Origin: Sphingopyxis sp. JAI108
GTDB lineage: Bacteria > Pseudomonadota > Alphaproteobacteria > Sphingomonadales > Sphingomonadaceae
Assembly: GCF_013410105.1 (NCBI RefSeq)
Contig: NZ_JACCCJ010000002.1
Coordinates: 1-64,000, forward strand
Direction of reading: 5' to 3'
DNA length: 64,000 nt
Positions 33,479-44,546 of the stretch are shown piece after piece. Each line of letters opens with the position of its first letter. Position 1 is the stretch's first letter. The translations under genes and the position numbers were made by a program. The notes beneath the pieces were generated by a model that was not told the DNA's origin, did not search any database, and worked only from the letters and a program-made list of their open reading frames with translations.

Positions 33479-33517
33479 TTCAGATGTGCCGAATCGGCCC
33501 TCTCAACCAAAAAAGTC

Positions 33518-33547
33518 GAAAAAAAAAGGGCCACCCGAGGGTGGCCC
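33518..33547 (-). terminator. Strong minus-strand Rho-independent terminator with no gene upstream
   Basis: A perfect 8 bp stem GGGCCACC/GGTGGCCC with a four-base loop is followed, on the minus strand, by a run of nine T. On the plus strand no T-run follows. No minus-strand coding gene is recognisable between here and 36.3 kb, so it should end an untranslated RNA. Confidence 0.8.
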
Positions 33548-33735
33548 GTGAAAGTTTTGGGAGAGGATGCCTAAAAGGCAAGTGTGATATTGCAGTGCAC
33601 AATGAATGTTGCAACTGCGAAAAGAGCATCCGCACTTGCATTTTTTGCAATCGAGAACGTTCCCAGCCGCCATTCGGCGCAATCCACGCGTGTTGCCGCT
33701 TCCTCTCGCAAATCAGCACGACATCGCCTAAATTG
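33548..33735 (-). ncRNA. Candidate small RNA upstream of orphan terminator
   Basis: The AT-richer 190 bp between the thioesterase and the next gene ends, on the minus strand, in a strong intrinsic terminator and has no convincing coding frame. It contains several TTGCA/TGCAA motifs, among them a TTGCA-TTTTT-TGCAA palindrome at about 33637-33651. The 5' end is unknown, and the coordinates give only the interval in which the RNA would lie. This is inference from the terminator. Confidence 0.35.
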
Positions 33736-41513: not shown

Positions 41514-42182
41514 TCATCCCTTTTCCGCGAGCGCCTTGTCGACGATCCTCGCCCCGACCGGGCCGACGAGGTTACCGCCGAAGCGAAACAGCACGAAGGC
41601 GCCGACGAACAGCAGCAGCGGCTCTATGAAGAGCGCGATGATCGCCGCGATGACGAGTCCGAAAAAGACGGCCATGAAACCGCCGGTGAGTTCGGTCTGA
41701 CCCTTGGGGCCCAGTTCGATCGTCCGCGGTCCCTTCGCGTCCCACCATTTGCTGGTCACGATCGACTTGCGGGCGCCACCGCCTGCGAGCGGGGGGTTGC
41801 TCGCGATTCGCGCGGGGGCAGCTTGCGGCGCGGAGCGATCGGTCGGTTGCCGGCTCCATGGCTTGTTGCGCCCGGTGGTCGCGACGTCGGCGCGCTCTTT
41901 CCTGTCATGCGCCGCGGTCGGCCGCGCCGCCGGCTTGGGCACCGGCGCCGGCCGGGCGGTCAATCCCGATTCGGCACGCGCCGCGGCGGACATGTCGGGG
42001 GACGCGCTCGTTTTGGGTGGCGTCTTGGCGGGCCGGATCGGTTCGATGCCGAGATTGCGGTCATGGGCATCCATCCGCTCGGCCGCCGTCGGCGGCGTCT
42101 GACCGGTTTCCCGGTCGATCACCACCAGCCGCCCGCCGCGTTCGACGACGAAGAGGCGGCTGGGGGGCGGGCGATCAACCAA
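41514..42182 (-). CDS. Hypothetical protein with C-terminal membrane hairpin
   Basis: A protein of about 222 residues with a Pro/Ala/Arg-rich disordered middle (residues 30-140) and a C-terminal hydrophobic pair (about 160-205) ending DKALAEKG. No ATG is in a suitable place. TTG at 42182 overlaps the end of ribH by 8 bp and has AAGGAA 10 bases upstream, so translation coupled to ribH is likely. Function is not recognised. The overlap places it in the ribB-ribH transcript. Confidence 0.55.
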
Positions 42183-42600
42183 TACCGAATTGTTCCTTGA
42201 GGGCCAGCATCGCGAGCGCGGCTTTGGCCGCTTCGCCGCCCTTATCCTTGCGCGTCTTGTCGGCGCGCGCAAGCGCCTGTTCCTCATTCTCGACCGTCAG
42301 GATGCCGTTGCCGATCGCCAGCCCGTCGAGCGTCAGCGCCATGATGCCGCGCGCGCTTTCGTTTGACACGACCTCGAAATGATAGGTCTCGCCGCGGATC
42401 ACGACGCCGAGCGCGACATAGGCGTCAAAGCGTCCGGCGTCGGCTGCGAGCGAGATCGCGGCGGGCACTTCCAATGCGCCGGGAACGGTTACCGTCTCGT
42501 GGCTGTGCCCCTCGGCCTCGAGCGCGCTGCGCACGCCGTCGAGGAGCATGTCGTTCAAACGGCTGTAGAAACGGGCTTCGACGATCAGGACGTGCGCCAT
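42175..42600 (-). CDS. ribH: 6,7-dimethyl-8-ribityllumazine synthase
   Basis: Condenses the RibB product with the aminouracil to give the lumazine precursor of riboflavin. The 141 residues show the family motifs [40 protein letters not shown] and NGILTVEN. The ATG overlaps the ribB stop in TGATG, so the two are translationally coupled. Its length is typical of the alphaproteobacterial type. Confidence 0.95.
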
Positions 42601-43874
42601 CAGGCTTCTCCGGGAATGGGGCGTTCGCCGACGACCGACAGGCCATAGCCCTCGAGCCCGACGATATTGCTGTGGGTGGGGGTGAGCAGTTCCATCGCGT
42701 GGACGCCGAGGTCGGCGAGGATCTGCGCGCCGATCCCGTAAGTGCGAAGATCCATGCCGCCCGTGGGCGGTGGAAGCGCGTCGGCATCGGCAGAACCGGG
42801 GAGCGGGCGCATCAGCATGACGATCACGCCGGCGCCCGCTTCGCCGATCGCGTCCATCGAGCGTTGCAGGCGGCGCTTCTTGGGGCCCGGCCGGCCCATG
42901 ATATCGTCGAAGATCGAGACGGGATGCATGCGCACCAGGGTCACGCCCTCGGGATCGACCGGTCCTTTCTGCAGCACCAGATTGACCGTGCCGTCGATCT
43001 TGTTGCGATAGGATTTGAGCCGCCAGTCGCCGCCATAATCCGATTCGAACGGTTCGTCGGACACGCATTCGACCAGCCGGTCGCTGCGGTTGCGATAGGC
43101 GATCAGGTCGGCGATCGTACCAATCTTCAGCCCGTGGCGCCGCGCGAAGGGGATGAGGTCGTCGAGGCGCGCCATCGTCCCGTCGTCGTTCATGATCTCG
43201 CAGATCACTCCCGAGGGGTTCAGCCCGGCGAGCCGCGCGATATCGACCGATGCCTCGGTGTGGCCGGCGCGCACGAGCACGCCGCCGTCACGCGCGATCA
43301 GCGGAAAGATATGGCCCGGCGTGACAATGTCGTCGCGCGTCTTGCCAGCGTCGATCGCGACCGCGACAGTGCGCGCGCGGTCGCCCGCCGAAATCCCGGT
43401 GGTGACGCCCTCGCGCGCCTCGATCGAGGTCGTAAAGGCGGTTTCGTGCCGCGTACCGTTCTGGCGGCTCATCAGTTCGAGCCCGAGCGTATCGACGCGC
43501 GCTTTCGTCAGCGTCAGGCAGATAAGGCCGCGGCCGTGCGTCGCCATGAAGTTGATCGCGTCGGGGGTCGCCATCTGCGCGGGAATGACGAGGTCGCCCT
43601 CATTCTCGCGGTCCTCGTCGTCGACGAGGATGAACATGCGGCCGTTGCGCGCCTCGGCGATAATTTCCTCGGGGCTGGCCATCGGCGACAGGTCGCTGCC
43701 GTTCGCCAGCCAGTTTTCGAGCTTGCGCAGCGTTTCGGCGGTGGGGTTCCAGCCGGGCGAATCGAGGTCGCGCAGGCTGTTGGCGTGAAGACCGGCGGCG
43801 CGCGCGAGGCCCGAGCGGGACATCGTCCCGTCCTCGACGATAGAGCGGATCCGATCGATGAGCTGTGTAGACAT
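42600..43874 (-). CDS. ribB: DHBP synthase RibB with N-terminal HTH and degenerate RibA domain
   Basis: Converts ribulose 5-phosphate to 3,4-dihydroxy-2-butanone 4-phosphate for riboflavin. Three parts are visible in 424 residues. Residues 1-62 look like an XRE-type helix-turn-helix ([19 protein letters not shown], then [15 protein letters not shown]). Residues about 68-270 are RibB with [31 protein letters not shown] and [13 protein letters not shown]. Residues 275-415 are the GTP cyclohydrolase II fold, but the zinc site with its CDCG-type cysteines is gone, as are most catalytic motifs, so it should be inactive (the RibBX type). A separate RibA is needed. The gene starts an operon with ribH. 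A palindrome lies just upstream of the ATG, and no clear ribosome site is visible. Confidence 0.9.
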
Positions 43875-43886
43875 AATGCCGATGTC

Positions 43887-43923
43887 TCACATCATAATGT
43901 GATTGTCAATTCATACATCACAT
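43887..43923 (-). promoter_or_regulatory. Candidate operator of ribB
   Basis: A perfect inverted repeat TCACAT-N4-ATGTGA (43887-43902) lies 12 bp upstream of the ribB ATG. A third half-site, ATCACAT (43917-43923), makes a second inverted repeat with ATGTGAT (43897-43903) across 13 bp. On the minus strand TTGACA (43909-43904) could be a -35 box; the palindrome then occupies the 16-17 bp spacer before a weak -10 (43886-43881). No FMN riboswitch is visible. Confidence 0.5.
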
Positions 43924-43931
43924 TCCACTGG

Positions 43932-44546
43932 TCATTGCGGGCCGAAGGTCGGACCGAACTCGCGCGCTGGCGCATCGGCCTTGGCTTCGAGCAAGGCGAC
44001 AATTCGTCCGCTGCGATCGTCACGTTTGGCGTAATCGCGTGCCGACATGCCCGCGATATGGTCGGCCTTGTCGGGATTCGCCCCGCGCTTGACGAGCAGG
44101 CGCACCATCGCGGCATTTTTTGCCTGCACCGCGAGGATCAGCGCGGTTTCGCCGCGCCGGTTGGTCTGGTCGACGGGCGCCTTCCTGTCGAGGAGCTCTT
44201 CGGCGCCGTCGGTGAAGTTGATAAGCGCGGTGTGCATCAAGGGAGTCACGTCCTGGCGATCGCCGATCGACGGATCAGCGCCCTTGGCGAGCAGGAAACG
44301 CAGCCAGCTGATATCGCGCCGCTTGGCGACGATGATCAGCGCGGTCTCGCCCGTGTCGGGGTTGCGCGTGTTGACGAACGAGGGATCGTCCTTCAGCGCT
44401 TCGGTCGCCTTGGTTCCATCGCGGTTGTCGACCGCCTGCAAAAAGGCATAGCCGCCGCGGAACTGCGCCTGCGCCGGGTGGACGAGCCCCGCAACCGCGA
44501 GCAGCATGAGGGAAGAGGCGAGGCGGAACTCCGCGCGTCGAAACAT
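43932..44546 (-). CDS. Exported ankyrin repeat protein
   Basis: A 204-residue protein with a signal peptide (MFRRAEFRLA to about residue 28, ending AQA) and four to five ankyrin repeats, for example TGETALIIVAKRRDISWLRFLL and RRGETALILAVQAKNAAMVRLLV. Ankyrin proteins in the periplasm are thought to mediate protein contacts; the partner is unknown. The start at 44546 is set by the signal. The downstream end lies 9 bp from the ribB upstream region on the same strand, and the sco gene is divergent upstream. Confidence 0.83.
   Translation of the reverse strand: MFRRAEFRLASSLMLLAVAGLVHPAQAQFRGGYAFLQAVDNRDGTKATEALKDDPSFVNTRNPDTGETALIIVAKRRDISWLRFLLAKGADPSIGDRQDVTPLMHTALINFTDGAEELLDRKAPVDQTNRRGETALILAVQAKNAAMVRLLVKRGANPDKADHIAGMSARDYAKRDDRSGRIVALLEAKADAPAREFGPTFGPQ

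Follow-up and report, generated by a model that had tools for sequence, protein, structure and literature searches.

In the window analyzed here, a stretch of 64,000 nucleotides from Sphingopyxis sp. JAI108 (positions 1 to 64,000 of contig NZ_JACCCJ010000002.1), the riboflavin synthesis gene ribB raises the question of why a housekeeping enzyme should carry a helix-turn-helix (HTH) domain at its N terminus and a palindrome in its promoter. We propose that the product, named HTH-RibBX, is quite probably a Cro-like autorepressor that would bind its own promoter, and that promoter, operator and HTH domain were captured together as a cassette from a switch of the temperate-phage type. The features on which this proposal turns are the following:

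42600..43874, minus strand: ribB (HTH-RibBX, 424 aa), the sole match to its own sequence in the 4.05-Mb genome
43692..43874, minus strand: N-terminal Cro/C1-type (XRE) HTH, residues 1–61, with the recognition region GLHANSLR
43887..43902, no strand: main operator TCACAT-N4-ATGTGA, TCACATCATAATGTGA, just past the −35-like hexamer
43904..43909, minus strand: TTGACA, the −35-like hexamer
43918..43923, no strand: distal operator half-site TCACAT, offset by 31 bp from the corresponding arm of the main operator

The palindrome accompanies the HTH wherever the two were compared, as judged by mismatches counted over the 12 positions of TCACAT-N4-ATGTGA upstream of each gene. In the first set, all 54 HTH-bearing genes have a site with at most two mismatches and all 67 HTH-less genes stand at three or more. 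Conservation of the palindrome in species with the same N-terminal domain had been named beforehand as a test of the idea of a self-repressing RibB, and the palindrome is kept in all 131 distinct HTH-bearing promoters at no more than two mismatches (74 exact, 45 with one, 12 with two), a level reached by 1 of 132 shuffled upstream regions; these promoters include close relatives and do not amount to 131 independent events, and they derive from a set of 132 rows from which one false HTH-bearing match (L021) was removed. Fifty HTH-bearing regions, taken mostly from added genera with a few from genomes seen before, gave 24 exact sites, 20 with one mismatch and six with two, and the 30 HTH-less RibBX genes from the same family all stand at three or more. 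Nineteen genomes carry both an HTH-bearing and an HTH-less ribB; in each of the eight in which both copies were examined, the site is present at the HTH copy and absent at the HTH-less paralogue, the 10 HTH-less genes of this comparison all standing at three or more mismatches. Many genomes hold a further RibBX that lacks both the HTH and the operator, and none of nine such loci (L204–L212) has ribE directly upstream.

Gene neighborhood was compared for 98 of the 131 HTH-bearing loci, those with enough of the gene present, and for 56 HTH-less relatives. Where ribE lies directly upstream, the site occurs in 33/33 HTH-bearing and 0/43 HTH-less loci, and in other upstream contexts in 65/65 and 0/13, respectively; since the site is present with the HTH regardless of ribE, it follows the domain and not the neighborhood. 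In a tree of catalytic domains, which took in 60 of the 98 HTH-bearing rows, the HTH label needs at least three changes on supported branches and seven on the best tree; the three supported contrasts are all concordant, with the HTH going together with the site, a number at which significance is out of reach (p 0.25). The exact site occurs in 34 of 99 genomes of the family, in one copy each, and the backward-read control gave none. Thirty-three of these copies sit 22–96 bp upstream of an HTH-bearing ribB, as placed by alignment-based starts for all 30 fetched copies and by coordinates for G000, G047, and G068. The remaining one belongs to G017, whose RibBs have no HTH: its site lies in a prophage-like region and is also found in the viral contig L275, an exception that pointed to the origin of the HTH cassette. 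HTH-RibBX combines the two marks by which an autoregulatory enzyme is recognized in sequence, a DNA-binding domain fused to the enzyme and a conserved site in its own promoter.

The HTH itself is recognized through its relatives. Residues 1–70 alone match HTH_26 at E 0.23, under the cut-off of a single-sequence search; among 18 aligned homologues, HTH_3 (best E 1.7e-5) and HTH_26 are each matched in 14 at E ≤ 1, and the HTH profile matches HipB and SinR at E 7e-4 to 1e-3. The predicted model has four helices, is lambda-repressor-like and of moderate confidence, and its top matches in the fold search are HipB, SinR, the MuB N-domain, and C proteins, none at E ≤ 0.001 and with Z mostly below 8. 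The XRE-type HTH that the sequence-only reading had placed at the RibB N terminus is thus supported by the relatives, the profiles and the predicted fold; the fold prediction, set beforehand as a check, gave no statistically strong hits and did not speak against the domain. Its recognition region, G-L-H-x-N-[ST]-L-R, is invariant in the 131 ribB HTH domains. The full protein has a relative at E ≤ 1e-80 in 288 of 298 genomes of the family, and the HTH alone is matched at E ≤ 1e-3 in 239 of 298, at least one of which (G017) has a stand-alone protein and not a fusion. Among the 80 named full-protein matches listed, 13 carry the HTH, every one from Sphingomonadales; the other 67 include three Sphingomonas and every match from outside Sphingomonadales, and the further HTH hits in their loci are two, at chance level and elsewhere in the locus. 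In other families of the order, the three HTH-matching genomes (G308, G326, and G362) have RibBs without HTH. Alignment A2 matched 65 of 385 genomes of the class (E ≤ 1e-4); no RibB fusion outside the family was found among those read (nine tried, three of which gave no proper reading frame), and the closest A2 matches outside the family are small stand-alone proteins. In G276 (L260/L261), the ribB matches fall in two separate pieces around residue 181.

ribB and the end of the neighboring open reading frame (ORF), at 43932, are separated by 57 bp, which hold TTGACA, the perfect palindrome and the extra half-site. The main palindrome starts 28 bp before the ribB ATG; its end 12 bp before the ATG, its place after TTGACA and the third half-site nearby are as had been described from the letters. 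It occurs exactly once in the window and once in the 4.05-Mb genome. With two mismatches allowed, the window has two hits, a number that 16 of 100 shuffles also reach, so that the relaxed motif alone is not special. The genome has 29 places with at most two mismatches, 15 of which were inspected (ribB and 14 others), and no riboflavin gene was recognized near the latter by eye; 12 of the 14 lie inside an ORF of at least 120 aa, a weak discriminator since the ribB site does so too, in an opposite-strand ORF. A CRP-type site was considered for the palindrome and not adopted, the arms being reversed relative to the CRP consensus. Across the family, 102 of 131 promoters have TTG 5–9 nt ahead of the proximal site (about 7% expected), and a second-best site lies 29–33 bp away in 91 of 132 upstream regions. 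The ribB promoter of the window shows no clear −10 element. Transcription starting about 35 bp past TTGACA would coincide with the ribB ATG, and a Shine-Dalgarno-like sequence precedes just 13 of the 131 HTH-bearing ribB genes, which together make a leaderless ribB message likely.

The G017 exception belongs to a wider set of stand-alone homologues. Small proteins (about 65–100 aa) with the same HTH domain are present in four genomes of the order, and further ones in genomes of the class (L336 and L337), in eight viral contigs and in phage Pan3; L266 and L275 are one element seen twice, as are L270 and L280. The search with the window HTH against phages by tblastn gave weak hits only and the first scan of viral contigs none; a profile scan found the eight loci and a second one four, all among those known. 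An S24-peptidase repressor lies beside the stand-alone HTH gene in five of six neighbors scanned, the sixth having an HTH only. A perfect 6-N4-6 palindrome starts exactly 29 bp before the ATG in 5 of 13 stand-alone loci, each equalled by at most 6 of 300 shuffles. The palindrome upstream of L336 has one mismatch and is equalled by 20 of 300; the sites of L275, L267, L279, and L282 were read from the sequence and not singled out by the palindrome scan, and none was seen upstream of L277, L281, and L337. In G017 and L275, TCCCAT-N4-ATGTGA is followed 31 bp further on by TCACAT-N4-ATGTGT, TTG lying between the two and the ATG after them; this arrangement reproduces that of the ribB promoter, its operator included. 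Viral contig L275 has two such sites at a second place too, likewise 31 bp apart. An exact ribB-type operator and a near-copy at 31 bp from each other are present in the prophage-like region of G017 (L272:2373–2419) and in L275 (from 1162). Several stand-alone homologues thus have the features of a Cro-like switch, namely a small HTH gene, an operator at a fixed distance and a CI-type neighbor; the ribB version keeps the HTH and the promoter layout, and the ORF list of the window has no CI-type neighbor for it. A viral origin of the cassette, which the sequence-only reading had not foreseen, is likely.

The pairing of recognition helix and operator across these loci, few as they are, is the best sequence-level evidence that the ribB HTH would read the palindrome. 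The window HTH is 33–41% identical to the stand-alone domains, and L275, at 40–41%, is no closer overall than several others; it nevertheless shares with the window the recognition region LHxN[ST]LRD and the operator TCACAT. LH[AP]N[ST]LR pairs with TCACAT, the GCATAT operators of three loci with [IL]H[HR]NTLxG (IHHNTLLG, LHRNTLYG, and IHRNTLNG) and the CGCAT operators of three more with M-x-DTTLR (MNDTTLRN, MHDTTLRH, and MSDTTLRD). Within this small sample, operators tend to change along with the recognition helix. One locus does not fit: L281 (LHRNSLYG) has ATATGC half-sites and no palindrome.

Two further observations concern relatives of the domain. In phage Pan3 (ON968454.1), with the stated host Pseudanabaena, an HTH gene with the operator GCATAT-N4-ATATGC lies at L367:2501–2680, where the annotated hypothetical genes run on the other strand; its protein shares 67% identity with that of the L280 prophage from a Sphingomonadaceae genome. 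A fusion of the same kind of HTH to CoaBC occurs in another family of the order (L268:211–1686 in G326 and L269:217–1701 in G362, with DFP and Flavoprotein domains), CoaBC being an FMN (flavin mononucleotide) enzyme of coenzyme A synthesis; no clear palindrome was found upstream of these two genes. Capture of such HTH domains by enzymes may be recurrent, as the CoaBC fusion illustrates.

The remainder of the ribB product is a RibB enzyme, followed directly by ribH:

43095..43670, minus strand: 3,4-dihydroxy-2-butanone 4-phosphate (DHBP) synthase (RibB) catalytic domain, residues 69–260 (Pfam PF00926 DHBP_synthase, E 1.2e-83)
42621..43058, minus strand: RibA-like (RibX) half without zinc-binding motif, residues 273–418 (Pfam GTP_cyclohydro2)
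42175..42600, minus strand: ribH (lumazine synthase), named from our own reading of the sequence

The RENEGD, GH, and TE positions of RibB, presumably catalytic, are invariant across 30 aligned relatives, and the closest solved structure is 6mnz (E 2e-92), the alignment beginning at residue 63. The only cysteines are 119, 225, and 270, and the zinc-binding C-x(10)-C-x-C, the mark of a GTP cyclohydrolase II, is absent from the RibA-like half; the sequence-only reading was right in both halves. A separate RibA elsewhere in the genome has the zinc motif CLTGDVLGSLKCDC, and with a RibA-like C-terminal half devoid of zinc ligands and a separate RibA, the protein belongs to the RibBX subtype. As ribB is the single DHBP synthase gene found in the genome, its catalytic part is presumably needed, and we infer that the product is catalytically active as a RibBX-type DHBP synthase. 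The ribH ATG overlaps the ribB stop codon (TGATG), and ribH lies downstream of the HTH-bearing ribB in 73 of 98 loci, some of them cut short. The product is annotated simply as ribB in the single annotated record checked. Elsewhere in the window, RF00519 (suhB, mmgR small RNA) is matched at 33513–33586 on the minus strand with 54 bits.

What the sequence itself shows is the HTH domain, the sites, their co-occurrence and the existence of stand-alone homologues whose promoters are laid out alike, and these suggest the following mechanism. The HTH domains of an enzyme dimer would bind TCACAT-N4-ATGTGA in the promoter of their own gene, where the main site fills the spacer between the −35 and −10 positions, so that a dimer sitting there would stand in the way of RNA polymerase; three helical turns upstream lies another site or half-site. 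Once enough enzyme is present, binding would shut off ribB-ribH transcription, and such negative autoregulation appears to be the simplest reading of the site position. The cassette, about 60 bp with the operator pair and the promoter plus the 60 codons of the HTH domain, would have been captured as one piece from a temperate phage or an element like it, where it served as the early switch, and inserted ahead of ribB, in many cases with ribE on its other side. The suggestion that the enzyme is its own repressor and senses flavin through its RibA half has accordingly divided: self-regulation gained strong support from the co-occurrence, the paralogue controls and the stand-alone homologues, all at the level of sequence, and flavin sensing was neither supported nor contradicted, the half being common to HTH-less relatives.

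That last point bears on the best of the alternatives, which adds to autorepression and does not deny it: ribulose 5-phosphate, DHBP, FMN, riboflavin, or GTP, acting on RibB or on the dead RibA half, would alter DNA binding and gate the loop by ligand or catalytic state, turning the enzyme into a sensor of its pathway in the manner of BirA or PutA. The loop does sit on an enzyme of the riboflavin pathway, and no FMN riboswitch (RF00050) was matched at the Rfam gathering threshold in the window, as had been noted from the start, or in 60 related loci. These include 20 HTH-less loci of the family and 20 outgroup loci besides 20 HTH-bearing ones, however, so that the absence is not tied to the HTH; the RibX half is equally present in HTH-less relatives, and phage Cro proteins are known to autoregulate without a ligand. 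We regard such gating as possible but doubtful. Somewhat more tentative still is the wider idea that a domesticated phage Cro module serves an essential vitamin pathway as both sensor and actuator, reading substrate, product or flavin state and tuning ribB-ribH in the riboswitch's stead; because HTH-RibBX shares its operator with a phage group that still exists, regulatory cross-talk may arise when prophages of this kind enter the cell, and incompatibility between HTH-RibB and the G017/L275 element is possible.

The position of the sites bears on a further alternative, in which the HTH-enzyme would activate its own promoter or switch it both ways, like the controller (C) proteins of restriction-modification systems, the distal site activating and the proximal one repressing. 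Most promoters have two sites, spaced by about 31 bp, on either side of the −35 region, in 24 of 131 the distal one matches better, and C.Esp1396I and C.AhdI are among the fold hits; the proximal site lies directly after the −35 hexamer, however, which is a repressing position, and the distal site of the window is a half-site only, which makes this scheme unlikely. That another regulator binds the palindrome, the HTH on RibB being a relic or used elsewhere, is very improbable: the HTH and the palindrome, whose pairing is known here from sequence, co-occur without exception in the loci examined, same-genome paralogues included, the operator tends to track the recognition residues in the stand-alone homologues, and the recognition motif is kept in 131/131.

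The Cro-like autorepressor that we propose has partial counterparts. BirA and PutA are enzymes whose DNA-binding domain controls a gene of their own pathway and which are gated by known effectors, whereas HTH-RibBX has no known effector. Small Cro-like proteins of temperate phages likewise have an HTH and an own-promoter operator at a fixed distance, with the S24/CI-type neighbor seen in the stand-alone homologues; the ribB HTH, by contrast, forms part of a housekeeping enzyme and has no CI partner beside it. The archaeal RbkR, a riboflavin kinase fused to an HTH, is both a flavin-pathway enzyme and a gene regulator (PMC8305020). It differs from HTH-RibBX in enzyme and in domain of life, and HTH-RibBX has a phage-switch-like HTH and an exact operator at its own promoter only. 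The RibBX proteins of Shewanella, Aeromonas, and Bradyrhizobium likewise join RibB to a RibA-like half without zinc residues, and in Shewanella this half is reported to affect RibB activity (PMC10012899); the HTH sets 13 of the 80 matches listed apart, all from Sphingomonadales, the other 67, three Sphingomonas among them, being without it. In Wolbachia, ribA is described as being under separate regulators (PMC3518464). Within the literature searched, at the level of titles, abstracts and passages, no bacterial riboflavin precedent for a self-regulating DNA-binding enzyme was found and no paper was recognized as describing HTH-RibB or such an operator, so that the link of HTH and operator stands as undescribed there. 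HTH-RibBX would be a new form of self-regulating enzyme, with an unusual origin in a phage switch.

At the level of sequence, this is a case of a complete regulatory cassette, with promoter, paired operators and DNA-binding domain, that would have passed from a switch of the phage type to a housekeeping enzyme and been retained by the greater part of a large family (239 of 298 genomes have an HTH match). In the record checked, annotation as ribB alone hides the predicted regulation, and the short operator makes it directly testable. The finding suggests how riboflavin synthesis might be regulated in Sphingomonadaceae with no FMN riboswitch involved.
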